Assembly (NCBI GenBank): GCA_028697885.1
Contig: JAQVER010000046.1
Location: 1 to 32,596 of the forward strand
Reading direction: 5' to 3'
Length of the DNA: 32,596 bases
Origin: Desulfocapsaceae bacterium
Lineage (GTDB): Bacteria > Desulfobacterota > Desulfobulbia > Desulfobulbales > Desulfocapsaceae
The notes below the pieces were generated by a model. That model saw only the letters and a program-made list of their open reading frames with translations, had not been told where the DNA came from and made no database searches. This document shows positions 11,883 through 30,727 of this stretch, piece after piece (the first letter of the stretch is position 1; each line of letters starts with the position of its first letter). A program made the translations under genes and the position numbers.

Positions 11883-11916
11883 AAGGGGTTACAGGCTGAA
11901 CAGCCTGTAACCCCTT
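11883..11916 (-). terminator. Displaced original terminator of the tRNA-fMet gene
   Basis: Perfect 16-bp hairpin arms (11883-11898 and 11901-11916) with a 2-base loop lie 8 bp beyond the left copy of the tRNA 3' end. On the minus strand it is followed by TTTCTTGTTTC. It sits where a tRNA-fMet terminator would be if the element were removed, and its outer half-arm AAGGGGTTA is shared with the hairpin next to the intact tRNA (30612-30640). Confidence 0.65.
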
Positions 11917-11924
11917 GAGTTATA

Positions 11925-11972
11925 TTATGGTAGCGGGGGCTGGATTCGAACCAACGACCTTCGGGTTATGAG
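11925..11972 (-). repeat. attL: 48-bp direct repeat of the tRNA-fMet 3' part
   Basis: These 48 bases are identical to 30648-30695. They contain the tRNA-fMet sequence from the anticodon loop (CTCATAA on the minus strand) to the CCA end plus three bases beyond it. Right after the repeat the tRNA sequence stops and AT-rich element DNA begins (AACAAAAAC). The integrase gene starts 175 bp to the right. This is the displaced original 3' end of the tRNA gene left by site-specific integration. Confidence 0.92.
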
Positions 11973-12147: not shown

Positions 12148-13317
12148 ATGCCAAGACAGACAAGGACGGCTACCAGTTATCCTGGTGTTTATTTTGTTGA
12201 GGCTCCAGCAGTCGGCAGTAATAAAATTGAGAAAATTTATTATATCCGTTATCGGCGTGAGGGGAAGGTTGTTGAGGAAAAGGCGGGACGGCAATATCAG
12301 GACGATATGACACCGGCCAGGGCAGCGGGGATTAGATCGTCGAGGATTGAGGGCAAGCAGGAAAGCAATACTCAAAAGAGACAGGCTGAGATGGCAGTCA
12401 AGCAGGCCGAACAGAACAAATGGACAATCTCTCGTTTATGGGCTGAATACAAAAAATGCAAGACGAACTTGAAGGGTATTGTTACGGATGAAAATCGATT
12501 TAAGCTTTATCTTTTTCCGTCCTTTGGTGACAAGCAGCCTTCCGAGTTAATTGCCCTGGATATTCATCGATTGCGTGTTTCCCTCCTCAAAAAGAAATCC
12601 CCCGGCACCGTCAAGAATGTTTTGGAACTTTTGCGGCGCATTATCAATTTTAGCACAAACAATAATCTTTGCGAGAGTATCAATTTTAAGATTGAGATGC
12701 CAAAGGTTGATAATGAAAAGACAGAAGACTTGTCACCTGATCAACTCTCATCCCTCCTGCAGGCTCTTGATGAATCTACAAACATTATTGCTTCTGGTAT
12801 CATGAGGATGGCCCTTTATACCGGCATGAGGCGTGGGGAATTATTCAAGCTGCAATGGGCTGATATTGATTTTGAGCGGGGTTTTATCTTTCTTCGCGAT
12901 CCCAAGGGCAACAAGGGGCAAAAAATCCCGCTGAATGATGGGGCCAGGCTGATGCTGACCAGTATGCCACGGACAAGCGAGTATGTTTTCCCCGGCAAGG
13001 GTGGTGCTCAGAGGGTGGATATCAACAAGGCGGTCAACAAGATCAAAAAAGCTGCGGGGCTCTCTGATGATTTCAGACCTCTGCACGGTTTGCGTCATAC
13101 CTATGCCTCAATGCTGGCCAGTAGTGGCAAGGTTGACATCTACACCCTGCAAAAACTTATGACTCATAAGTCTCCTGTTATGACGCAACGATATGCCCAT
13201 TTAAGGGATGATGCCTTGAGACAAGCGGCAGACCTGGCCGGGGACATAATCAATGATGCAATAAATCTAAATTGCACAACAATAGTCCCACTTGCAAAGA
13301 AATTGAATAATGCATAA
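12148..13317 (+). CDS. int: Tyrosine site-specific integrase
   Basis: The 389-residue protein has the catalytic set of phage-type tyrosine recombinases: first Arg in TGMRRGEL (R228), HGLR (H313, R316), then a conserved H317 and Tyr in MTQRYAHL (Y349). The order R...HxxR...Y with YTGMRRGELFKLQWADID and LRHTYASML is standard for the family. The N-terminal 70 residues (GVYFVEAPAVGSNKIEKIYY) look like a beta-rich arm-binding domain, and residues about 90-180 form the SAM-like core-binding domain (LWAEYKKCKTNLKG onward). It cuts and rejoins DNA at att sites in the tRNA-fMet gene. Unusually for tRNA-targeting islands, it lies at the attL end, far from the intact tRNA. The ORF is intact, so it may still be active. 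Confidence 0.95.
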   Translation: MPRQTRTATSYPGVYFVEAPAVGSNKIEKIYYIRYRREGKVVEEKAGRQYQDDMTPARAAGIRSSRIEGKQESNTQKRQAEMAVKQAEQNKWTISRLWAEYKKCKTNLKGIVTDENRFKLYLFPSFGDKQPSELIALDIHRLRVSLLKKKSPGTVKNVLELLRRIINFSTNNNLCESINFKIEMPKVDNEKTEDLSPDQLSSLLQALDESTNIIASGIMRMALYTGMRRGELFKLQWADIDFERGFIFLRDPKGNKGQKIPLNDGARLMLTSMPRTSEYVFPGKGGAQRVDINKAVNKIKKAAGLSDDFRPLHGLRHTYASMLASSGKVDIYTLQKLMTHKSPVMTQRYAHLRDDALRQAADLAGDIINDAINLNCTTIVPLAKKLNNA

Positions 13318-19165: not shown

Positions 19166-21565
19166 ATGGCCATCAAGAAATCCGAACTCTATTCCTCCCT
19201 CTGGAAATCCTGCGACGAACTGCGCGGCGGCATGGATGCCTCGCAATACAAGGACTATGTACTGGTCCTCCTGTTCGTCAAATATGTCTCCGATAAATAT
19301 GCCGGTGACCCCAACGCCCTGATTGATGTCCCTGCTGGCGGCGGCTTTTCCGACATGGTGGCCGCCAAGGGCGACAAGGAGATCGGCGACAGGATCAACA
19401 AGATCATCGGCAGGCTGGCCGACGCCAATGACTCCCTCAAGGGTGCGATCAACGTCGCCGACTTCAACGATGAGGAGAAGCTTGGTAAGGCACAGGCCAT
19501 GGTGGACCGGCTCACCAAGCTGGTGTCCATCTTCGAGGGGCTGGATTTCGGTCGCAACCGGGCCGAGGGCGATGACCTGCTGGGTGATGCCTACGAATAC
19601 CTGATGCGCCACTTCGCCACCGAGTCCGGCAAGTCCAAGGGCCAGTTCTACACCCCGGCGGAAGTTTCGCGCATCATGGCTATGGTGATTGATCTGGGTG
19701 CTGCCCGCGATCCGGACCAGAGTATCTATGACCCCACCTGCGGTTCCGGTTCGCTGCTGCTCAAAGCGCACGATGAGGCCAGGAGCCGTACCGGGCTGGA
19801 GCTGGCGCTCTACGGTCAGGAGATGGACAACGCAACCTCCGCCCTGGCGCGGATGAATATGGTGCTGCACGACTGTCCGACAGCGGAAATCTGGCAGGAC
19901 AACACCCTCGCCCACCCGCATTTCAAGAATGGTGACGGCGGTCTCAAGACCTTCGACTATGTGGTCGCCAATCCGCCCTTCTCCACCAAGGCGTGGACCA
20001 GCGGCCTCGATCCGGAAAATGACCTCTATGGTCGCTTCGAATACGGCACACCACCTGCCAAGAACGGCGACTATGCCTTCCTGCTGCACATGCTCAAAAG
20101 CCTCAAGAGTACCGGCAAGGCGGCAGTGATTCTCCCGCACGGCGTGCTGTTCCGGGGCGGCGCCGAAGGAGGGATTCGCAAGCGCATCGTCAGGCAGGGG
20201 TATATCAAGGGCATCATCGGCCTGCCCGCCAACCTGTTCTACGGCACCGGCATCCCCGCCTGCATCATCGTACTGGACAAGGAAGGCGCGGCCGGGCGCA
20301 AGGGCCTCTTCATGATCGACGCCAGCAAGGGCTTCATCAAGGACGGCAACAAGAACCGCTTGCGGGCGCAGGACATCCACAAGATCGTCGACACCTTGAC
20401 CCGTCAGCTGGAGACACCCAAGTATTCGCGCATGGTGCCGCTGGCTGAGGTTGAGGCCCACGACTTCAACCTGAATCTACCGCGCTATATCGACTCGACC
20501 TCCCCGGAGGACCTGCAGGACATTGAGGCCCATCTCAAGGGCGGCATCCCCAAACCCGATATTGATGGCCTTGCCGCCTACTGGCAGATTCTCCCCAACG
20601 TGCGCCGTGAACTCTTTGTTGATGCAGACCGCACCGGCTACAGCCAACCCAGGGTCGAAGCCAGTCAAGTCAAGGCAGCCATCTTCGGCCACCCCGAATT
20701 CACCGCCTTCAACAGCCAAGTCACCCAGTTGTTCGGCGCATGGAAAACCGCCAACACCCCGCTGCTCACTGGCATTCAGCAGGGAGACCGCCCCAAGGTG
20801 CTGGTTGAAGCCCTCTCGGAAACCCTGCTGGAAACCTTCCGCAGTTCGGATGGCATAGCCTCTCTGATCGACCCCTACGGTGTTTATCAGCACCTGCTGG
20901 ACTATTGGGCAGAGACCATGCAGGACGATGCCTGGATGATCGTCAGTGACGGCTGGCAAGCGATACAGGACAACAAGCCCAACACTGACCTAATACCACC
21001 CGCGCTGATCGTCTACCGCTATTTTGCCGCCGAGCAGGCCGCCATCGAACAACTGGAAGCCAAACGTGACGCCGTCAGCCGTGAGATGGAGGAGATGGAC
21101 GAGGAACACGGCGGCGAGGAGGGACTGCTGGCAGAGGGCAAGACTGATAAAGGGAAACTCAGCGCCAAGAGTGTCAAGGATCGGTTGAAAGCCATCAAGG
21201 GCGACAAGGATGCCAAGGACGAACTCAAGATGCTGGAAGCCTATGCGGCCCTGATCGACAAGGAGTCCACGGCCAGCAGGAAGGTGAAGGAGGCGCAAAA
21301 AACACTCGATGTCAAAGTTGCCGCCAAATACAGGCTACTGAGTGAGGCCGAGATCAAGACGCTGGTGGTGGATGATAAATGGCTGGCCGAACTGGCCGCC
21401 AGCGTGCAGGGTGAACTGGATCGCGTCAGCCAGGCACTGACCGGACGCATCAAGCAACTGGCCGAACGCTACGCCACGCCGCTGCCCAGGCTGGCCAAAG
21501 AAGTGGAAACCCTCGCCAGTCGCGTGGACGAGCACCTGAAGAAGATGGGGTTCGCATGGAAGTGA
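19166..21565 (+). CDS. hsdM: Type I restriction-modification DNA methyltransferase subunit M
   Basis: The 799-residue protein opens with the HsdM N-terminal helical domain (SSLWKSCDELRGGMDASQYK, then DYVLVLLFVKYVSDKY). The N6-adenine methyltransferase core follows: the QFYTP segment before motif I, motif I DPTCGSGSLL (CGSG at 192-195) that binds S-adenosylmethionine, and catalytic motif IV NPPF (269-272). It is longer than the 500-530 residues of classic HsdM; the extra C-terminal 250 residues are charged and probably coiled coil (QLEAKRDAVSREMEEMDEEH onward). In complex with HsdS it methylates adenines in the recognition site. GC content is visibly higher than in the surrounding element genes, which points to a separate origin. 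It overlaps hsdS by 10 bp. Confidence 0.96.
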   Translation: MAIKKSELYSSLWKSCDELRGGMDASQYKDYVLVLLFVKYVSDKYAGDPNALIDVPAGGGFSDMVAAKGDKEIGDRINKIIGRLADANDSLKGAINVADFNDEEKLGKAQAMVDRLTKLVSIFEGLDFGRNRAEGDDLLGDAYEYLMRHFATESGKSKGQFYTPAEVSRIMAMVIDLGAARDPDQSIYDPTCGSGSLLLKAHDEARSRTGLELALYGQEMDNATSALARMNMVLHDCPTAEIWQDNTLAHPHFKNGDGGLKTFDYVVANPPFSTKAWTSGLDPENDLYGRFEYGTPPAKNGDYAFLLHMLKSLKSTGKAAVILPHGVLFRGGAEGGIRKRIVRQGYIKGIIGLPANLFYGTGIPACIIVLDKEGAAGRKGLFMIDASKGFIKDGNKNRLRAQDIHKIVDTLTRQLETPKYSRMVPLAEVEAHDFNLNLPRYIDSTSPEDLQDIEAHLKGGIPKPDIDGLAAYWQILPNVRRELFVDADRTGYSQPRVEASQVKAAIFGHPEFTAFNSQVTQLFGAWKTANTPLLTGIQQGDRPKVLVEALSETLLETFRSSDGIASLIDPYGVYQHLLDYWAETMQDDAWMIVSDGWQAIQDNKPNTDLIPPALIVYRYFAAEQAAIEQLEAKRDAVSREMEEMDEEHGGEEGLLAEGKTDKGKLSAKSVKDRLKAIKGDKDAKDELKMLEAYAALIDKESTASRKVKEAQKTLDVKVAAKYRLLSEAEIKTLVVDDKWLAELAASVQGELDRVSQALTGRIKQLAERYATPLPRLAKEVETLASRVDEHLKKMGFAWK

Positions 21566-22713
21566 GGCCAGGGTATAAGCAGACCGAAGTGGGGGTGATC
21601 CCGGAGGATTGGGAGGTCAGGAAATTCGGAGAATTTGCTGCACCCCGCAAAGATCGGGTTGACCCGCGAAAGTCTGGTACTCAAGAGTTTTGTATCGAGT
21701 TGGAGCATGTTGGGCAGGCATCAGGAAGATTGGTGGGAAGTACAAGCACTGGCCCGGAAGCTTCCCTCAAAACCGCCTTTCAGACTGATGACGTACTGTT
21801 CGGAAAACTGCGAGCTTATCTTAGAAAGTATTGGCTTGCAGAGTGTGGTGGTGTTTGCTCGACTGAAATATGGGCTTTACATGCAAACCCGCGATGGGTA
21901 ACGCCAAGCTTTGTTTATCAAGTTGTTACGAGTGACTCATTTATTGAAGCGGCCAGTAATTCCTACGGAACGCACATGCCGCGCTCCGATTGGAATATAG
22001 TGAGAAGTTGTGAGTTCGCTCTCCCACCTATGCCCGAACAACGCGCCATCGCCGCCGCGCTGTCGGATGTGGATATCCTGCTCGCCAAGCTCGACCAGTT
22101 CATCGCCAAGAAGCGCGACCTTAAACAGGCTGCCATGCAGCAGCTCCTCACCGGCCAGGCCCGGCTGCCGGGGTTTAGTGGGGAGTGGGAGGTGAAGCTT
22201 CTCGGCAGCATCTGCGAGAAAATCACAACCGGAAAGCTTGATGCAAATGCAATGGTGGCCGATGGAGATTACCCATTTTTTACCTGCGCTAAAGAGCACT
22301 ACTGGATAAACAAGTATGCTTTCGACGTCGAGGCATTGCTTGTCTCTGGCAATGGTGCGAATGTTGGGTACATTCATCACTATCATGGGAAATTCAACGC
22401 GTATCAGCGCACTTATGTGTTGACTGGATTTTCGGAAGATATTCATTACACTAAGCTTTTCATGGAGAGGAACCTCCAAGAACGTTTGCGTGCCGAGGTG
22501 AATGCGGGGAATACGCCTTATATCGTGATGGATACTCTCGCAAAGATGGTCGTCACTCTTCCCAGCAAGATAGAAGAACAGCGCGCCATCGCCACCGTCC
22601 TCTCTGACATGGATGCCGAGATCACCGCCCTCGAAGCCCGTCGTGAAAAGACCCGTGCCCTCAAGCAGGGGATGATGCAGGAACTGCTGACTGGTAAAAT
22701 TAGATTGATTTGA
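21556..22713 (+). CDS. hsdS: Type I restriction-modification specificity subunit S
   Basis: The 385-residue protein has the two-fold layout of HsdS. It opens GYKQTEVGVIPEDWEVRKFG, the usual first-TRD lead-in; TRD1 covers about residues 15-150. A central conserved helical spacer follows (PEQRAIAAALSDVDILLAKL, then KRDLKQAAMQQLLTGQARLP). TRD2 covers about 215-330, and the distal repeat of the spacer closes the protein (EEQRAIATVLSDMDAEITAL, LKQGMMQELLTGKIRLI). The two spacer copies are clearly paralogous. Each TRD should read one half of a bipartite target; the target cannot be predicted by eye. The TRDs are lower in GC than the conserved spacers, as expected when TRDs are exchanged by recombination. 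It starts inside the end of hsdM (ATGGAAGTGA). Confidence 0.95.
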   Translation: MEVRPGYKQTEVGVIPEDWEVRKFGEFAAPRKDRVDPRKSGTQEFCIELEHVGQASGRLVGSTSTGPEASLKTAFQTDDVLFGKLRAYLRKYWLAECGGVCSTEIWALHANPRWVTPSFVYQVVTSDSFIEAASNSYGTHMPRSDWNIVRSCEFALPPMPEQRAIAAALSDVDILLAKLDQFIAKKRDLKQAAMQQLLTGQARLPGFSGEWEVKLLGSICEKITTGKLDANAMVADGDYPFFTCAKEHYWINKYAFDVEALLVSGNGANVGYIHHYHGKFNAYQRTYVLTGFSEDIHYTKLFMERNLQERLRAEVNAGNTPYIVMDTLAKMVVTLPSKIEEQRAIATVLSDMDAEITALEARREKTRALKQGMMQELLTGKIRLI

Positions 22714-22720
22714 GGCCCTA

Positions 22721-23647
22721 ATGAAAAATTATTACCGCGTTATGTTGGGCAGGAAGAGTATTCATGCCGCTGATGGATTTGCCGGTGATTTTATCGGTGC
22801 TGATTTTGAAATTCCTCAAGATTTGACTGGCGACTTACCTGATGATTGGCGGGCCTTCAATAAAAAATTCATCCCCGTCTTTCTCTCAACCCACCCAGAT
22901 AAAACCAAGATTGGTGCCGGTCTGGCCTGCGGTGCTTTGTGGACTGTCTCCAAGGGCATCCGCAAGGGTGACATCGTGTTATGCCCGGATGGTTCTGGCT
23001 GTTATCGGGTAGGTGAGGTCAGCGGAGATTACTTCTATGCACCGGGAGAGAACATTCCCCATCGACGCCCAGTGTACTGGCTCAACAACACCATTGACCG
23101 AGCAGACATGAGCGAGGCTCTGAAGAACTCCACTGGTTCTATTGGTACAGTAAGCACCATCACTAAACATGCGGTAGAGATCGAGAGGCTAATTGCCGGC
23201 GTCGCTGCACCTAGTTTGATTGCAACAGATGAGACAGTAGAAGATCCTGCTGTTTTTGCCCTGGAAAAGTATCTGGAAGATTTTTTGGTGCATAACTGGG
23301 CGCAAACTGATCTCGGCCGGGAATACGACATCTACGAAGAGGATGGGGATAAGGTCGGTCAGCAATATCCCTCAGATACTGGGCCGCTCGACATCCTGGC
23401 CATCAAAAAGGATAAGTCAGAGCTGCTGGTCGTGGAGTTAAAGAAAGGACGGGCAAGTGATGCGGTTGTCGGGCAAGTATTGCGCTACATGGGGTTCGTG
23501 CTACAGGAGTTGGCAGAGCCTGGGCAAAGCGTCAAGGGTGTCATTATCGCGCTGGACGATGATCAAAAGATACGTCGCGCGTTGGCGGTATCTCCGAACA
23601 TCGATTTTTACCGGTATCAGATTAGTTTCAAATTGTTAAAAGGATGA
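22721..23647 (+). CDS. PUA/EVE-like domain plus NucS-like PD-(D/E)XK nuclease embedded in the type I operon
   Basis: The 308-residue protein is two-domain. The N-terminal half (about 1-165) has WTVSKGIRKGDIVLCPDGSG, YRVGEVSGDYFYAPGENIPH, RRPVYWLNNTIDRADMSEAL and STGSIGTVSTITKH. This resembles the PUA/EVE-like head found in Mrr/McrB-type proteins, which in characterised cases recognises modified bases. The C-terminal half is nuclease-like: VGQQYPSDTGPLDILAIKKD gives D224, and LLVVELKKG gives E239-x-K241 (PD-(D/E)XK), then VVGQVLRYMGFV, as in NucS/DUF91 endonucleases. It therefore looks like a modification-dependent restriction enzyme. It sits 7 bp after hsdS and 1 bp before hsdR, so it is co-expressed. 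GC content is lower than in hsdM and hsdR. Function is inferred from motifs. Confidence 0.75.
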   Translation: MKNYYRVMLGRKSIHAADGFAGDFIGADFEIPQDLTGDLPDDWRAFNKKFIPVFLSTHPDKTKIGAGLACGALWTVSKGIRKGDIVLCPDGSGCYRVGEVSGDYFYAPGENIPHRRPVYWLNNTIDRADMSEALKNSTGSIGTVSTITKHAVEIERLIAGVAAPSLIATDETVEDPAVFALEKYLEDFLVHNWAQTDLGREYDIYEEDGDKVGQQYPSDTGPLDILAIKKDKSELLVVELKKGRASDAVVGQVLRYMGFVLQELAEPGQSVKGVIIALDDDQKIRRALAVSPNIDFYRYQISFKLLKG

Positions 23648-23648
23648 T

Positions 23649-26600
23649 ATGAGCACCGTCGGCCAGATTGAAAAGCGAACCCAAGCCCGCATCGTTGAGT
23701 TGTTCCGCAAGCGGCTGAACTATGATTACCTCGGCGACAGGACCGACCTCGACAACCGCAACATCGAGTTGGCCCTGCTGCGTGACTGGCTGATGAGGCA
23801 GGGCGTGAGCGACATGCTGATCAACCGGGCGCTGCATGAACTGAACCGGGCGGCAACGGATACCAGCAAGCACCTCTTTGACCGCAACAAGGATGTCTAT
23901 GACCTGCTGCGCTACGGCGTGAAGGTGCAGCCCGGCGCGGGCGAGAACCGGGTCACGGTCTGGCTGATCGACTGGAAGCACCCGGAGAACAACCACTTTG
24001 CCATTGCCGAAGAAGTCACAGTCAAGGGGGCCGATGCCAAGGCCAGCACCAAGCGCCCGGACGTGGTGATCTACATCAACGGCATCGCTGTGGGTGTGCT
24101 GGAGCTGAAGCGCTCCACCGTGTCGGTGGCCGAGGGCATCCGCCAGAATCTGGATAACCAGAGGAAGGAGTTCATCCAGCCCTTTTTCTCGACCATGCAG
24201 TGGGTAATGGCGGGCAATGACACCGAGGGGCTGCGCTACGCCACCATCGAGACGCCAGAGAAGTATTATCTGCGTTGGGTGGAAGACGGCGGCTCTTACG
24301 TGGCTGAGCCGAACCTTTTGGACCGTCACCTGTTGCAGGTATGCGACAAGGCGCGACTGCTGGAGCTGATCCACGATTTTGTGGTATTCGATGCAGGCAC
24401 CAAGAAGCTGTGCCGCCAGAACCAATATTTCGGCGTCAAGGCAGCGCAGGAATTCATCCACCGCCGCGAGGGCGGCATCATCTGGCACACCCAGGGCAGT
24501 GGCAAGTCGCTCACCATGGTGTGGCTGGCCAAGTGGATACGTGAGAAACGCGCTGGTGCACGGGTGCTGATCATCACCGACCGCACCGAGCTGGACGAGC
24601 AGATCGAGAAGGTGTTTCTCGGCGTCAATGAACAGATTTACCGCACCATCAGTGGTGACGACCTGATCGACAAACTCAATGGCACCACGGAATCATTGCT
24701 CTGCTCCTTGGTGCACAAGTTTGGCAGCAAGGGGAACGGTGAGGCGGAGGGTGACGAGGGAACCAAGGCATTCATCGAGTCCATCCAGAAGCTGCCACCG
24801 GATTTCAAAGCCAAGGGTGACATCCATGTGTTCGTCGATGAGTGCCACCGCAGCCAGAGCGGCGACCTGCACAAGGCGATGAAGGCCCTGCTGCCCAATG
24901 CACTGTTCTTCGGTTTTACCGGCACGCCGCTGTTGAAGGCGGACAAGCGAAAGAGCATTGAAGTCTTTGGCCGCTACATCCACACCTACAAGTTCGACCA
25001 GGCTGTGCGCGAGGGTGTGGTCCTGGATTTGCGTTACGAGGCACGGGATATCGACCAGCAACTGACCAACAAAGATAAGATCGACCAATGGTTTGAGGCC
25101 AAGACCAAGGGGCTGAATGACCTGGCCAAGGCGCAGCTCAAGCAGAAGTGGGGAACGATGCAGCGGGTGCTATCCAGTCAGGACAGACTGGGGAAAATCG
25201 TTGCCGATATCCTGCTCGACATGAATGACAAGCCACGCCTGATGGACGGACACGGCAACGCCATGCTGGTGGCAGGCAGCATCTACGAGGCGTGCAAGTT
25301 CTATGAGCTGTTTGCCAAGAGCGAACTCAAGGGCAAGTGCGCCATCGTCACCAGCTATGCGCCGATGGTGGCCGATACCAAGGGCGAGACAACTGGCGAG
25401 GGCGACACGGACAACCTGATCAAATACGGGGTGTACTCCCAGATGCTGGCCGACTGGTTCAATGAACCGGCGGAGAAGGCCATCAATAAAGTGCAGAGAT
25501 TTGAACAGGAGGTGAAGAAGAAGTTCATCACCGAGCCGGGCCAGATGAAGCTGCTGATCGTGGTGGACAAGCTGCTCACCGGCTTCGATGCCCCCCCGGC
25601 AACCTATCTCTACATTGACAAGCAGATGCGCGACCACGGGCTCTTTCAGGCTATCTGCCGCGTCAATCGGCTGGATGGCGATGATAAGGAATACGGCTAC
25701 ATCATCGACTATAAGGATCTGTTCAAGAGTCTGGAAGGCGCGGTTGGGGACTATACCAGTGGTGCGCTTGACGGCTATGACAAGGAAGATGTGGCTGGGC
25801 TGCTGGAAAACCGGCTGGTCAAGGCGCGGGAAGATTTGGAAGATGCCCGCGAGGCGGTCAAGGCGCTGTGTGAGCCGGTGGAGGCACCCAGGGATTCGGC
25901 GGCCTACCTGCATTATTTCTGCGCTAAGGAGTCGGGCAATGCTGACCAGCTCAAGGACAACGAGCCGAAGCGGCTGAAGCTTTACAAGTTCGTGGCAACC
26001 CTACTACGCGCCTATGCCAGCATTGCCAGCGAATTGGCGGAGGCGGGCTACAAACCGGACGAGATTGAGAAGATCAAGGCCGAGGCGGATCACTACACCA
26101 AGGTGCGCGATGAGGTGCGGCTGGCCAGTGGCGACTATATCGACCTAAAGGCTTACGAGCCAGCCATGCGCCACCTGATCGACACCTACATCCGCGCTGA
26201 GGAGAGCGAGAAGATTTCGGCCTTCGACGACATGAGTCTGATTCAGTTGATCGTCGAGCGTGGCCCTGACGCTGTGGATGCGTTGCCCAAGGGCATCAGG
26301 AAGAGCGAGGATGCGGTGGCCGAGACCATCGAGAATAACGTCCGCAAGCTGATCATCAACGAGTCACCAGTTGATCCGGCCTATTACGACAAGATGTCGA
26401 AGCTGCTGGATGCGCTGATTGAGCTGCGACGCAAGGGTGTGGTGAGCTATAAGGAGTATCTGGGGAAGATTGCCAGGCTGACCAAGGAGGCAACGATGCC
26501 GGGTGGTGATCCTGGCTATCCACCAGGCGTGAAGACGGCGGCTCAGCGGGCGCTTTATAACAACCTGGGGAAGGACGAGGAAGTGGCGCTGGCGGTGCAT

Positions 26601-26840
26601 GCGGCGATAGAGAGCAGCCGTATGGATGGGTGGCGTAGTAATGCTATGAAGACCAAACGGGTACGATTGGCCATCAGGGCCGTGCTGCTTGCTGATCGTG
26701 AGATGTTTACTACCACGACTGGCGAGATGGGTTGTCAGACTAAGGAAGCAGACGTCCTCTTTGCGACCGCCCGTACAGAAGAGGGTGAAGCACTGGTGGA
26801 GCGAATCCTCGAATTGGCAAAGAACCAAAATGACTACTGA
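23649..26840 (+). CDS. hsdR: Type I restriction endonuclease subunit R
   Basis: The 1063-residue protein has the full HsdR order. The N-terminal nuclease shows KRPDVVIYINGIAVGVLELK with D138, E152-x-K154 (PD-(D/E)XK). The SF2 translocase follows with Walker A QGSGKSLT (283-287 core), motif II DECH at 397-400 (VDECHRSQSGDLH) and motif III FGFTGTPL. The second RecA domain contains LLIVVDKLLTGFDAPPATYL and QAICRVNRLDGDDKEYGYII, with arginine-finger-type motif VI. The C-terminal 300 residues form the helical domain that contacts the methyltransferase core. It resembles the long EcoR124/HsdR_C type. Bound at an unmethylated target with HsdM2S, it translocates DNA and cleaves at a distance. GC content is high, like hsdM. 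Its end overlaps the next gene by 11 bp. Confidence 0.97.
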   Translation: MSTVGQIEKRTQARIVELFRKRLNYDYLGDRTDLDNRNIELALLRDWLMRQGVSDMLINRALHELNRAATDTSKHLFDRNKDVYDLLRYGVKVQPGAGENRVTVWLIDWKHPENNHFAIAEEVTVKGADAKASTKRPDVVIYINGIAVGVLELKRSTVSVAEGIRQNLDNQRKEFIQPFFSTMQWVMAGNDTEGLRYATIETPEKYYLRWVEDGGSYVAEPNLLDRHLLQVCDKARLLELIHDFVVFDAGTKKLCRQNQYFGVKAAQEFIHRREGGIIWHTQGSGKSLTMVWLAKWIREKRAGARVLIITDRTELDEQIEKVFLGVNEQIYRTISGDDLIDKLNGTTESLLCSLVHKFGSKGNGEAEGDEGTKAFIESIQKLPPDFKAKGDIHVFVDECHRSQSGDLHKAMKALLPNALFFGFTGTPLLKADKRKSIEVFGRYIHTYKFDQAVREGVVLDLRYEARDIDQQLTNKDKIDQWFEAKTKGLNDLAKAQLKQKWGTMQRVLSSQDRLGKIVADILLDMNDKPRLMDGHGNAMLVAGSIYEACKFYELFAKSELKGKCAIVTSYAPMVADTKGETTGEGDTDNLIKYGVYSQMLADWFNEPAEKAINKVQRFEQEVKKKFITEPGQMKLLIVVDKLLTGFDAPPATYLYIDKQMRDHGLFQAICRVNRLDGDDKEYGYIIDYKDLFKSLEGAVGDYTSGALDGYDKEDVAGLLENRLVKAREDLEDAREAVKALCEPVEAPRDSAAYLHYFCAKESGNADQLKDNEPKRLKLYKFVATLLRAYASIASELAEAGYKPDEIEKIKAEADHYTKVRDEVRLASGDYIDLKAYEPAMRHLIDTYIRAEESEKISAFDDMSLIQLIVERGPDAVDALPKGIRKSEDAVAETIENNVRKLIINESPVDPAYYDKMSKLLDALIELRRKGVVSYKEYLGKIARLTKEATMPGGDPGYPPGVKTAAQRALYNNLGKDEEVALAVHAAIESSRMDGWRSNAMKTKRVRLAIRAVLLADREMFTTTTGEMGCQTKEADVLFATARTEEGEALVERILELAKNQNDY

Positions 26841-27558
26841 GACGCATCGCATCACTATCAGCGGTTTCAAGGTGGAAGTGGTACGTAAGGATATCAAAAA
26901 CCTGCATCTTGGTGTCTATCCGCCTCATGGTCGGGTACGGGTGGCCGTCCCGCTGGCGGTAAATGATGAAGCCGTGCGCTTGGCGGTGATCGATAAGTTG
27001 GGCTGGATCAAGCGACAGAAGGCTAAATTTGTGGAGCAACCGCGCCAGTCGCGACGCGAGATGGTGAATGGCGAAAGTCACTACTTTCTAGGAAAACGGT
27101 ACCGTCTGCGTGTGCATGAGCACGATGGCCCGGCCAGGGTCGCTGTGCGCGGTATCGCCAGCCTCGACCTGTTCGTGCGTCCCGGCACCAGCCCTGAGCA
27201 GCGGGAAACCATCTTGTTACGCTGGCATCGTGAGCAACTCAAGGCGCTGATTCCGCCCTTGCTGGAGAAGTGGCAACCTATTCTTAATGTTCAGGTCGCC
27301 GACTGGGGTATCAAGAAGATGAAAACCAAGTGGGGCACCTGCAACATTGAGGCAGGGCGGATCTGGTTGAATCTGGAACTGGCCAAGAAACAGGTACGGT
27401 GCCTGGAATATATTATTGTGCATGAAATGGTGCATCTGCTGGAGAGACACCATAATGAACGGTTTATGGAGTTAATGGATCAGTTCATGCCCCAGTGGCG
27501 GACTTATCGCGAAGAGCTGAAGCAAGTGCCGTTGGGACATGAGGGCTGGAATTACTGA
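26830..27558 (+). CDS. YgjP-like metallopeptidase (M48/WLM-like, DUF45) of the type I operon
   Basis: The likely start is the ATG at 26830, inside the last codons of hsdR, giving 242 residues; an in-frame upstream start would overlap hsdR by 150 bp. The core is WGTCNIEAGRIWLNLELAKK, then VHEMVHLLERHHNERFMELM. HEMVH (198-202) is the HExxH zinc site and H208 is a plausible third ligand. The N-terminal part reads VEVVRKDIKNLHLGVYPPHG RV, the common DUF45 start. YgjP-like peptidases are frequent neighbours of hsdR genes, but their job is not established; they may process or turn over the restriction complex. Composition matches hsdR. It is the last gene of this operon. Confidence 0.9.
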   Translation: MTTETHRITISGFKVEVVRKDIKNLHLGVYPPHGRVRVAVPLAVNDEAVRLAVIDKLGWIKRQKAKFVEQPRQSRREMVNGESHYFLGKRYRLRVHEHDGPARVAVRGIASLDLFVRPGTSPEQRETILLRWHREQLKALIPPLLEKWQPILNVQVADWGIKKMKTKWGTCNIEAGRIWLNLELAKKQVRCLEYIIVHEMVHLLERHHNERFMELMDQFMPQWRTYREELKQVPLGHEGWNY

Positions 27559-27725
27559 TAAGCCCAAGCGAATTATAATTGAGGGATGGCTGGGTATGAT
27601 TGATCATGTATTCTAACGGGTGAGTGTCCTGCTTTAGAATGCTGATCAGCACATCTGGCAGGAAACCCCTTGGATCGAAGTGGCATCATCGATATATTTT
27701 CGACAAAGTTATTAACTTCTTCCCA

Positions 27726-27753
27726 TTGTTATTTGTATAGTTTGGTGTATAGT
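27726..27753 (+). promoter_or_regulatory. Candidate sigma70 promoter of the TIGR04255 operon
   Basis: TTGTTA (27726-27731) and TATAGT (27748-27753) are 16 bp apart, about 50 bp upstream of the first ATG at 27804. The -10 box overlaps the left arm of the 14-bp dyad that follows, so a protein bound there would block the promoter. Confidence 0.45.
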
Positions 27754-27785
27754 TAATTAATAAGTAACATTTTATTAATTAACTA
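27750..27785 (+). promoter_or_regulatory. Perfect 14-bp inverted repeat, candidate operator
   Basis: TAGTTAATTAATAA (27750-27763) and TTATTAATTAACTA (27772-27785) are exact inverted repeats with an 8-bp spacer, 18 bp before the operon's first ATG. There is no T-run and the arms are AT-rich, so an operator is more likely than a terminator. The HTH protein encoded as the second gene is the natural candidate binder (inference). Confidence 0.6.
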
Positions 27786-27803
27786 ATTGAGATAATTATT
27801 GCT

Positions 27804-28622
27804 ATGGTAGATCGAACTGGCATACTTCAGAATTCTCCACTGGCCTATATGTTGGCATCTGTTCGTTTTGCTCCATGGACTTTAATGGCAAAGAAAATCG
27901 ATGAAATTCACGATGAATTACGTGATATTTTGCCTTTGATTCATCGTATTCAGATGCAAAGAATTGGACCGGATGGACAAGTGACTACGCAAGGGGATGA
28001 AGCTACACAAACAACAATGTGGGTGTTCATGCCAAGTGATCGATCTTATGGGATTCAATGTGCACCAGATCAATTGCTTATGTTTTGTAAGAAATATATA
28101 AGATATATAGATTTCGAAACAATTCTTAGCAGAGTTTTTGATGTGCTTTTGAAATATATGCGTTTTGTCGATGTGGCTAACATGGGCGTAAGATATGTTG
28201 ATCATATCAAAGTGTCATCAGAGGAACAGCTTGAAAATTATATTGATGTTGGCTGGTTGCCAGCTGATATTAAGGGTATGGAAAAGCTTGGTGGTGTAGT
28301 TTTGGGAAGTTATAAGTCAGGATCTACTGAATTGCGCATACGTAGCATTAGCCAGCCGGGTATGTTGTCAGTTCCAGATGATTTGATTCACGTACTTGCC
28401 TTGTTTCAGGAGCCTAACAAAGTACTTCAGCTGGAAATACTAAAGAGCGGTGAAATGTTGCTTGATATAGATTCTATCAAGAACAATACAACTCCAGAGC
28501 GCATGGAAAAAGACGAAATTCTACGTCAGCTTAACTTGTTGCACCAAGAGGCGAATACTTTTTTCCGGCATGAGTCCGTTTGCACTGAACATGCCTTCGA
28601 AGTTTGGAAAGGAGATATCTAG
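27804..28622 (+). CDS. TIGR04255-like family protein
   Basis: The 272-residue protein starts at an ATG just after the dyad. It opens NSPLAYMLASVRFAPWTLMA, then KKIDEIHDELRDILPLI. The pattern N.PL......vrF......i..i...lr...P is the hallmark of the sporadic TIGR04255 family, whose function is unknown. The middle has VDVANMGVRYVDHI, another typical stretch (cf. r.glRYiN.i), and the C-terminal part contains LLDIDSIKNN and LNLLHQEANTFFRHE (cf. ...l...h......F). No catalytic motif is visible. It is AT-rich compared with the preceding restriction operon and forms an operon with the two following genes. Family placement is by pattern, function is unassigned. Confidence 0.75.
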   Translation: MVDRTGILQNSPLAYMLASVRFAPWTLMAKKIDEIHDELRDILPLIHRIQMQRIGPDGQVTTQGDEATQTTMWVFMPSDRSYGIQCAPDQLLMFCKKYIRYIDFETILSRVFDVLLKYMRFVDVANMGVRYVDHIKVSSEEQLENYIDVGWLPADIKGMEKLGGVVLGSYKSGSTELRIRSISQPGMLSVPDDLIHVLALFQEPNKVLQLEILKSGEMLLDIDSIKNNTTPERMEKDEILRQLNLLHQEANTFFRHESVCTEHAFEVWKGDI

Positions 28623-28626
28623 AGCT

Positions 28627-29313
28627 ATGTTAGCAAGTACTTTCTTAGCAGGCGTTATAGCTACAGCTCCTTCATCTTATGTCTGTCAAGCGCCAATGGA
28701 GAAAATAATTGAAAGTTATTACTCTTCGTCAATAGGGCTCGGAGAATACTTTTTGGAGTTTGAGAAAGCTACTCTTCCTTCTCCGTTCAAACAGAAGCCT
28801 CGTCGTATTATTTACATTGACGATCAACCATTGAGCATTACAAGGAATGCTCTGCCAATCGAACAACCCAAAGATACGATTGCAGCACAAACTAATATCT
28901 CTATTGATCGATTGAATCTAATTAGGGAGCGTTTTGCGTTATCCATTACACAGATGGCTGAATTGTTTGGCGTTACCCGTAAGTCTATTTATGATTGGTA
29001 TGAAGGAGTTGAGCCACGCGCGGCCATGACGAGCCGTATGGAAATTCTTATCGATGCCTTAGGGGCAGTTCCTGATGTGGTTGATTTGCAACGATTAAAG
29101 GTGGTCTGGAATATTCCTGTCTTAGGTCAATCATTTTGTACCGTATTTAATAATGCTAATTTGGACAACGATTCTCTTCTAAAAGAGCTAAAGATAAAAC
29201 TGCATGAACTTTCTCCTCGTATGGTTAAGAAAACTAGCTTGCCGCGCAAAACAACCACTCAACTTGGCGAAGCTCATCTTGCTGAATTCGACAGACATGC
29301 CGATTTCAGCTGA
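28627..29313 (+). CDS. XRE/HTH-like protein, second gene of the TIGR04255 operon
   Basis: The ATG at 28627, four bases after the upstream stop, has AAAGGAG (28608-28614) twelve bases before it, giving 228 residues. The reading frame extends back to an ATG at 28570, which lacks a ribosome site and would overlap the first gene by 53 bp. Residues about 95-140 hold a Cro/XRE-type HTH: LNLIRERFALSITQMAELFG, then VTRKSIYDWYEGVEPRAAMT, with an RF.ls..qmA.lfgVtr.siy.W pattern. The first 25 residues (MLASTFLAGVIATAPSSYV) are hydrophobic and might form a membrane or packing helix. The C-terminal 80 residues are not recognised. It may repress its own operon through the 14-bp dyad upstream, or act as a protein-partner module. 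Confidence 0.7.
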   Translation: MLASTFLAGVIATAPSSYVCQAPMEKIIESYYSSSIGLGEYFLEFEKATLPSPFKQKPRRIIYIDDQPLSITRNALPIEQPKDTIAAQTNISIDRLNLIRERFALSITQMAELFGVTRKSIYDWYEGVEPRAAMTSRMEILIDALGAVPDVVDLQRLKVVWNIPVLGQSFCTVFNNANLDNDSLLKELKIKLHELSPRMVKKTSLPRKTTTQLGEAHLAEFDRHADFS

Positions 29314-30211
29314 GTTAGCTGAAACTCTATTAGCTGAAATCAAAGCCAAGAAGTGGTGGCAAGGCTCATTGATTTTGGGAAGTGATTTGTCGAAAATCGA
29401 TGATAGTGGGGAGGAAACCGAGTGGTGGATAATCACATCGCAGACATGTAATCTTTATAATTCGTGTTTTCAAAAGATACCTGTATTTGAGATAGTGGCC
29501 GCATGTGGGATAGAGACTTGCGATCGTGGAAAAATCCGTGGTGACAATCCGCGTATTCTGCATATTGAAGCTCGATCTGGAGAAAAAGTTATTGCATTAG
29601 AGCTCAATATTCAGAAACGTCGATGGTGTCCTCGTAAAATATTGGGTAAACTGCCTGCGCCGACTTTTTATGTGCGCGATATCGAGCGGGGGACTGAGCC
29701 GGACTGGCAGAAGAAACAATGGTTGGATATTTTTGTTGGGTGGTTGGCTCGTAGCTACAATCGTGTCGCACTTCCGGATGCTTTTAGCTATGCCATGAAA
29801 AAGTCCAAGCTCCAAAATATCTTCGAAAAAAAACTTACTAGTTATAAAGAAGAGTTGTTCGGCATCTATTTGTCGCTTGGACGGGATAGCGAGGATCTGT
29901 GGGATGGAGTGCTTGGGGAGATGTTGCCTCCATATCTCCTCAATATCGTACTAGTTGTATATGAAAATGTTGACCCTGAACCACTCAAACAGCAATTGCT
30001 GCAACAGATTTTCAACGATAAAATAAAAAACCCCGAAAACAAACTTGAGGATGTAACCTGCGCTCAATTGGCACTGCAACACAAAATCCGTCTAATCGAA
30101 GATGATATTGAGGTATCGAGTATTGCAGATATTACGTTGTCCAGGCTTCAATCGCTTGTGCGCTATTCTCTTGTTGACCACCTTTCTGATTCTTCAATGG
30201 CAACTCCATAA
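29297..30211 (+). CDS. Unrecognised 304-aa protein, third gene of the TIGR04255 operon
   Basis: The ATG at 29297 overlaps the end of the HTH gene by 17 bp and gives 304 residues; an in-frame ATG at 29204 would overlap it by 110 bp. The N-terminal third reads EIKAKKWWQGSLILGSDLSK, then EWWIITSQTCNLYNSCFQKI and PVFEIVAACGIE. The SQTCNL-type turn between a hydrophobic strand and an acidic P..E...  strand recalls uncharacterised proteins with an SxDCDL motif, but I cannot name a family. Later parts include NPRILHIEA, a KRRWCPRKIL segment and a helical C-terminal half (GIYLSLGRDSEDLWDGVLGE, IFNDKIKNPENKLEDV). Cysteine-rich spots (TCN, AACGIETC) could bind metal. A likely effector or sensor of the three-gene module, by position only. 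Confidence 0.6.
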   Translation: MPISAELAETLLAEIKAKKWWQGSLILGSDLSKIDDSGEETEWWIITSQTCNLYNSCFQKIPVFEIVAACGIETCDRGKIRGDNPRILHIEARSGEKVIALELNIQKRRWCPRKILGKLPAPTFYVRDIERGTEPDWQKKQWLDIFVGWLARSYNRVALPDAFSYAMKKSKLQNIFEKKLTSYKEELFGIYLSLGRDSEDLWDGVLGEMLPPYLLNIVLVVYENVDPEPLKQQLLQQIFNDKIKNPENKLEDVTCAQLALQHKIRLIEDDIEVSSIADITLSRLQSLVRYSLVDHLSDSSMATP

Positions 30212-30606: not shown

Positions 30607-30640
30607 AAAAAAAGGGGTTAAGATATTATCTTAACCCCTT
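30607..30640 (-). terminator. Terminator of tRNA-fMet, supplied by the element
   Basis: On the minus strand a 13-bp perfect hairpin (arms 30612-30624 and 30628-30640, 3-base loop) is followed by a seven-U tract (30607-30613). It starts 11 bases beyond the tRNA CCA end. It is inside the element, so the element replaces the host terminator that was displaced to 11883-11916. Confidence 0.8.
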
Positions 30641-30647
30641 GAATTTG

Positions 30648-30695
30648 TTATGGTAGCGGGGGCTGGATTCGAACCAACGACCTTCGGGTTATGAG
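30648..30695 (-). repeat. attR: 48-bp direct repeat within tRNA-fMet
   Basis: Identical to 11925-11972. It supplies the tRNA from the anticodon loop to CCA plus three bases, so integration keeps an intact-length tRNA gene. Confidence 0.92.
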
Positions 30696-30727
30696 CCCGA
30701 CGGGGTACCAGACTGCTCCACCCCGCG
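30651..30727 (-). tRNA. Initiator tRNA-fMet(CAU)
   Basis: The minus strand gives a 77-base tRNA with CCA encoded. The anticodon loop is CTCATAA (CAU). The stem below it is TCGGG/CCCGA with the three consecutive G-C pairs of initiators. The first acceptor pair is unpaired (C1 with U72), also an initiator feature, though C1-A72 is the E. coli form. The T arm (GTTGG TTCGAAT CCAGC) is sound. The D arm is unusual: positions 22-25 are CCCC where GCTC would pair with GAGC (10-13), so two of four D-stem pairs are lost. The 3' half is part of the 48-bp att repeat. Confidence 0.88.

Follow-up and report, generated by a model that had tools for sequence, protein, structure and literature searches.

The 32,596-bp contig JAQVER010000046.1 of a Desulfocapsaceae bacterium (assembly GCA_028697885.1), an entire contig of the source genome and referred to here as the window, carries a cassette of three genes, A, B and C, that is real and conserved by sequence comparison and likely constitutes a tripartite toxin-antitoxin module. 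Its first gene encodes a member of the family TIGR04255, which by prediction is the fixed partner while the toxin-antitoxin pair varies among cassettes. The three genes are as follows.

27804-28622, + strand: gene A, TIGR04255 protein of 272 amino acids, predicted third partner (89.8 bits against the NCBIfam TIGR04255 cut-off of 30)
28627-29313, + strand: gene B, 228 amino acids, predicted antitoxin and repressor (sub-threshold helix-turn-helix matches)
29297-30211, + strand: gene C, 304 amino acids, predicted toxin (predicted fold and invariant residues)

A first-pass annotation of this DNA had described a contiguous module composed of a TIGR04255-like protein, a helix-turn-helix protein and an unrecognised third protein. 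The open reading frames agree with the contiguity, with a 4-bp gap between A and B and a 17-bp overlap of B and C, and the score of protein A lies above the TIGR04255 cut-off. This protein also matches phrog_35157 (function unknown; E 1.4e-7) and is modelled with a mean predicted local distance difference test score (pLDDT) of 90.5; Pfam gives it no match at E ≤ 1, SecB included. In a Pfam scan of all three proteins helix-turn-helix matches were obtained for B alone, at residues ~95-140 (about 28909-29046); the helix-turn-helix is conserved in an alignment of 15 B proteins, but all of the Pfam and NCBIfam matches fall below threshold. The third protein is indeed unrecognised, with no match for C in Pfam (E ≤ 1), NCBIfam, PADLOC or PHROGs; PADLOC has no match at E ≤ 1 for A either. 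A and C each have one match in the source genome.

A protein database contains 91 homologues of C at E ≤ 0.001, and when 84,980 species genomes were scanned with two peptide patterns from the C alignment, 50 stretches matched, 11 of them relatives. These 11 loci are in Methylobacter, Methylicorpusculum, Pseudomonas, Caballeronia, Janthinobacterium and Parachlamydiaceae, plus a near copy of the last, and tblastn finds A and B preceding C in all of them, with the match to B being weak (E 6e-6 to 6e-4) in the three most distant. The order TIGR04255, small gene, C is also present in all three plasmid matches (24-28% identity; two from Cyanobacteria and one from Meiothermus). The homologues, far from being rarely adjacent, thus lie together in every locus and plasmid record (11/11 and 3/3), as expected of the single module in the annotation, and by these comparisons the cassette is kept as a unit in bacteria as far apart as Gammaproteobacteria, Cyanobacteria and Deinococcota. 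It is not described in the literature searched. One locus, L012, is labelled as a Chlamydia trachomatis metagenome-assembled genome and has a cassette near that of L011 (Parachlamydiaceae), and its label may be in error.

TIGR04255 is itself more widespread than C, and its partners vary. It is present in 32 of 395 genomes of the window's phylum, the window's genome included, and after omission of L078 and L087, which run into contig ends, and of L114, whose A is broken, from 38 other places, each of the 35 readable places has two genes directly behind A, overlapping or separated by short gaps. Only same-strand frames behind A were scanned, so the shared strand is by construction and the informative features are the recurrence of classes and the short gaps. 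The third genes of these 35 are SVTR (6), QDCD (6), PIN (5), HEPN-like (4), DUF7689 (4), DQHH (4), HicA-like (3), PemK (2) and one other, the classes being named by eye, motif and BLAST, with Pfam run on single representatives and QDCD joining subtypes by motif. In the class of Pseudomonas TIGR04255 is found in 35 of 369 genomes, at 43 places, of which 40 were examined after omitting the known L004 locus, one place at a contig edge and one that is broken. Here the third genes are QDCD (16), the SVTR/DQHH kind (13; 7 by BLAST and 6 by motif), PIN (3), NlpC-like (3, by eye), and one each of HEPN-like, YhaV and HNH; two places are left unclassified, L169 because its third gene is broken and L173 because it meets a contig end. 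For eight of these 16 QDCD proteins the window's C is the best match among third genes of the first sample.

The PemK, PIN, YhaV and DUF7689 representatives exceed their Pfam cut-offs. By sequence comparison TIGR04255 stays constant from cassette to cassette while the third gene changes, with PemK, PIN and YhaV toxins recognised by Pfam among the genes in that place. NCBIfam names none of ten third-gene representatives, and PADLOC, run on seven, gives no E-value better than 0.002. The DUF7689-type third genes (in L081, L084, L085 and L097) are a candidate toxin family. In a tree of 76 TIGR04255 proteins (built by a quick method, with 27 of 73 inner branches weak, and with SVTR and DQHH merged) the class of the third gene changes 16 times, where 9 is the minimum possible and shuffling gives 41 on average, indicating that the partnerships are long-lasting and yet exchanged. 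Three cassette-bearing genomes contain a second TIGR04255 gene (L129, L130 and L131); L130 fits the cassette pattern with an NSCD-type third gene, and gene 2 of L129 shows a helix-turn-helix.

A natural exchange of partners is seen in loci L080 and L082, from genomes that belong to different families. The two A proteins share 85% identity and the third genes are unrelated (QDCD and PemK, respectively), while the gene 2 products are 57% identical over residues 1-82 and dissimilar beyond. The N-terminal part of gene 2 thus goes with A and the C-terminal part with the toxin, pinpointing the joint in the presumed antitoxin at residue 82. L080 and L083 repeat the swap (A 82%, gene 2 47%), and L186 (HEPN-like) and L187 (QDCD) do so weakly, with A 57% identical, unrelated third genes, and gene 2 30% identical over 53 residues (E 9e-5). 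Among classified cassettes gene-2 BLAST matches link 134 same-class pairs and two cross-class pairs, both from the L080 swap, when SVTR and DQHH are merged; unmerged, the first sample has 40 matches within classes and five across. A profile built on the B proteins of 15 window-type cassettes recovers 10 of 72 other gene-2 proteins, each of the 10 in a window-type cassette.

These swaps bear on whether A, rather than B, restrains the toxin. A could neutralise C, or could sense infection and hold the toxin, with B merely linking A to the toxin and repressing the operon; A is constant while gene 2 and the toxin vary, and in the PanAT systems, as presented in PMC10440598, a constant antitoxin domain with exchangeable neutralising parts has a proposed sensor role. 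However, a near-identical A (85%) accompanies unrelated toxins and the C-terminal part of gene 2 changes along with the toxin, which places toxin specificity in gene 2 and argues against A as the neutraliser. We consider this arrangement unlikely, if the least so of the alternatives, and favour B as the antitoxin.

The N-terminal half of C (residues ~18-158 of 304, about 29348-29770) is predicted to adopt the MazF/CcdB fold, its structural model forming a barrel of this type. Residues C51, E65 and R156 are invariant across 23 relatives. The annotation had taken the SQTCNLYNS stretch and the cysteines as hints of a metal-binding domain, but the stretch sits in the predicted barrel and C51 alone among the cysteines is invariant in the alignments, so this idea finds no support. 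C differs from the MazF/PemK and CcdB toxins in having no profile match to them, other invariant residues and an additional C-terminal half. Arginine and threonine are catalytic residues of MazF/PemK toxins, and R25 and T49 are invariant in 25 PemK proteins. C might share the barrel fold and bind nucleic acid or protein without being a toxin, the operon being a regulatory or repair module carried as cargo, as would suit the lack of a profile link between C and MazF and the difference of C51, E65 and R156 from the PemK residues. We think this improbable, because sister cassettes hold PemK, PIN and YhaV toxins at the operon position of C, and in one swap a C-type (QDCD) protein is exchanged for PemK beside a near-identical A. 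That the cassette is of toxin-antitoxin type, with C as the toxin, is in our judgement probable on the comparative and structure-prediction evidence; the annotation had raised a toxin-antitoxin-like module, and this is now the best-supported reading.

The region upstream of A contains further candidate regulatory features.

27734-27742 and 27746-27754, + strand: tandem direct repeat TGTATAGTT, period 12 bp, candidate operator for B
27726-27753, + strand: candidate promoter TTGTTA - 16 bp - TATAGT, from a consensus scan
27750-27785: perfect 14-bp dyad with an 8-bp spacer (arms 27750-27763 and 27772-27785)

Side-by-side comparison of upstream regions revealed a tandem repeat of TGTWWAST with a 12-bp period, which the annotation had not mentioned, and the site at 27734-27754 is the sole perfect match to TGTWWASTNNNNTGTWWAST in the window. 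The repeat scores at least 14/16 upstream of A in all 15 C-family loci, window included, and is perfect in 11 of them (two near copies counted), compared with 13/16 or less in 64 cassettes of other kinds; the pattern was derived from these 15 loci, which are therefore no independent test of it. Eleven further window-type loci were chosen before testing by third-gene type or a visible helix-turn-helix, and ten were later confirmed by the B profile, with the eleventh, L188, lying outside its set. A repeat of any sequence at lag 12 with 8/9 identity is present in seven of these 11 against one of the 64 others (Fisher p 1.3e-6; L012 and L014 omitted from the lag test as near copies), and other lags from 9 to 24 give repeats in three or fewer of the 11. 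We infer that B may read the tandem repeat and repress its own promoter. The -10-like TATAGT of the candidate promoter falls inside the second repeat copy, and a second promoter-like site lies at 27712-27741. Such sites could be the promoter that the annotation assigned to the genes, but their number between 27400 and 30700 (10, against 7.6 in shuffles, sd 3.0) is not above chance. The dyad, also noted in the annotation, is perfect, and when the letters of the 220 bp upstream were shuffled 40 times no shuffle equalled it; it is touched by the second repeat copy and is not conserved in relatives.

In the mechanism that we propose C would be the toxin, and B the antitoxin and repressor, binding the repeats upstream of A and repressing its own promoter, with its C-terminal part neutralising C. 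A would bind the N-terminal part of B, folding or stabilising it and keeping it functional, and loss of A or B would then free the toxin. That A is a dedicated partner of this sort is the more tentative element, and we rate it somewhat below an even chance. A parallel for release of the toxin is CmdTAC, in which the chaperone is reportedly drawn away by a phage capsid protein.

The toxin-antitoxin-chaperone (TAC) systems, including Mtb-TAC and CmdTAC with their SecB-like chaperones, are among the closest known systems. They share with the TIGR04255 cassettes a three-gene operon, a constant third protein beside a varying pair (with gene 2 as the putative antitoxin) and a separate part of the antitoxin that links it to the third protein. 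In TAC, according to PMC5105189, the constant third protein pairs with different toxin-antitoxin pairs, HigBA, HicAB and MqsRA. The differences are that the third protein here is TIGR04255, which has no SecB match in Pfam and whose chaperone action is putative; that it is encoded first rather than last; that the part of gene 2 staying with it is N-terminal, whereas TAC has a C-terminal chaperone addiction domain (ChAD); and that PemK, PIN, YhaV and unnamed families occur among the third genes. PanAT and NetFlax similarly combine a constant module with many unrelated toxins, and in PanAT the neutralising parts are attached linearly and exchanged; the PanAT modules in the part of PMC10440598 available are two-gene architectures, TIGR04255 does not appear there, and the constant module of the TIGR04255 cassettes is a separate protein. 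One TIGR04255 cassette has YhaV, the toxin of YhaV-PrlF, in third place; in it the end of the gene 2 product weakly matches the PrlF tail, at PrlF positions 46-90 alone, and the TIGR04255 gene is extra. The cassette would add to the tripartite kind of toxin-antitoxin system, with the roles of toxin and partner being predicted.

A number of results count against the toxin-antitoxin interpretation. For C, hhalign against MazF/PemK gives a probability of 3-9% with an implausible register, Foldseek returns no E-value below 0.01 and ranks two type III secretion ring proteins above the first MazF, and the arginine and threonine invariant in PemK are not evident, the alignment of C to PemK being unreliable. 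The fold matches of A are ambiguous and near background. Among the third genes, the HicA, HEPN and HNH matches fall below Pfam cut-offs, Pfam recognises nothing in a second HEPN-like protein, and no activity is known for several classes. In the short loci L129 and L131 a third gene is not visible, and a Rhodococcus plasmid (L201:3992-7083) has TIGR04255, a 'transcriptional regulator' and then an insertion sequence (IS) transposase in third place. For gene 2, six other cross-class pairs with related A have no match at E < 1e-3, ten proteins have no Pfam match to an antitoxin family, as is also so for the partner of PIN in L185, and a hydrophobic client segment is not general (peak of at least 1.6 in 18 of 66, shuffles 31%). 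Upstream, the exact repeat pattern reaches 14/16 in just three of the 11 further window-type loci, and the lag-12 repeat is absent in four of these 11 and, at 8/9 identity, in six of 13 C-family loci.

The cassette is the final gene group of an 18,771-bp element bounded by a 48-bp direct repeat, ahead of the right copy.

11925-11972, + strand: left attachment repeat, 48 bp, identical to 30648-30695
12148-13317, + strand: element integrase (phrog_1 integrase, 196 bits)
19166-27558, + strand: type I restriction-modification operon, neighbouring cargo (PADLOC MTase_I, Specificity_I, REase_I), with M at 19166-21565, S at 21556-22713, R at 23649-26840 and two more genes
30648-30695, + strand: right attachment repeat, 48 bp, overlapping tRNA-Met at 30651-30727 (- strand)

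The direct repeat and its overlap with tRNA-Met bear out the annotation's view of an element between attachment sites, and the cassette stretch is, as it also claimed, richer in A+T than the restriction operon (41% and 56% G+C, respectively). Both attachment repeats are adjoined by similar hairpins (AAGGGGTTA ... TAACCCCTT) at 11883-11916 and 30612-30640, as if a terminator flanking the tRNA had been duplicated along with the element. Of the two other genes in the restriction operon, that at 22721-23647 scores 521.5 bits to the PADLOC candidate-defence model PDC-S02, and that at 26830-27558 overlaps the gene for the restriction subunit at its end, has no PADLOC match, and is one that we take to be metallopeptidase-like from HEMVHLLERHHNERF.

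Place alone suggests a defence role for the cassette. At locus L008 of Pseudomonas juntendi, 93 bp separate the end of C from the 3' end of a P2-type portal gene, after which come terminase and scaffold genes. P2-like phages of E. coli carry defence genes between gpA and gpQ, according to PMC9122126, and the L008 cassette lies beside the portal gene, on the side where those phages carry them. An integrase-like gene is present in the examined flanks of L007, L010 and L011 and on the Meiothermus plasmid. The three proteins could act as one complex in anti-phage abortive infection with no antitoxin logic, consistent with carriage on an element that also bears a type I restriction operon and with the portal gene beside the L008 cassette. 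The two-part gene 2 and the candidate operator are however traits of toxin-antitoxin systems, and PADLOC lacks models for A and C; we regard abortive infection of this form as doubtful.

Within the toxin-antitoxin interpretation a broader proposal, which we hold at just short of even confidence, is that TIGR04255 is the hub of an undescribed and widespread class of tripartite toxin-antitoxin systems, in which one partner with no relation to SecB would license an adaptor antitoxin of two parts, and through it many unrelated toxins, and may sense phage infection, and that the unnamed third genes (window-type C, DUF7689, SVTR/DQHH and NlpC-like) are new toxin families. If true, a sporadic protein family named by number alone would gain its first role, the tripartite toxin-antitoxin systems would gain a third partner of non-SecB type, and the third cassette position would become a place to seek new toxins.
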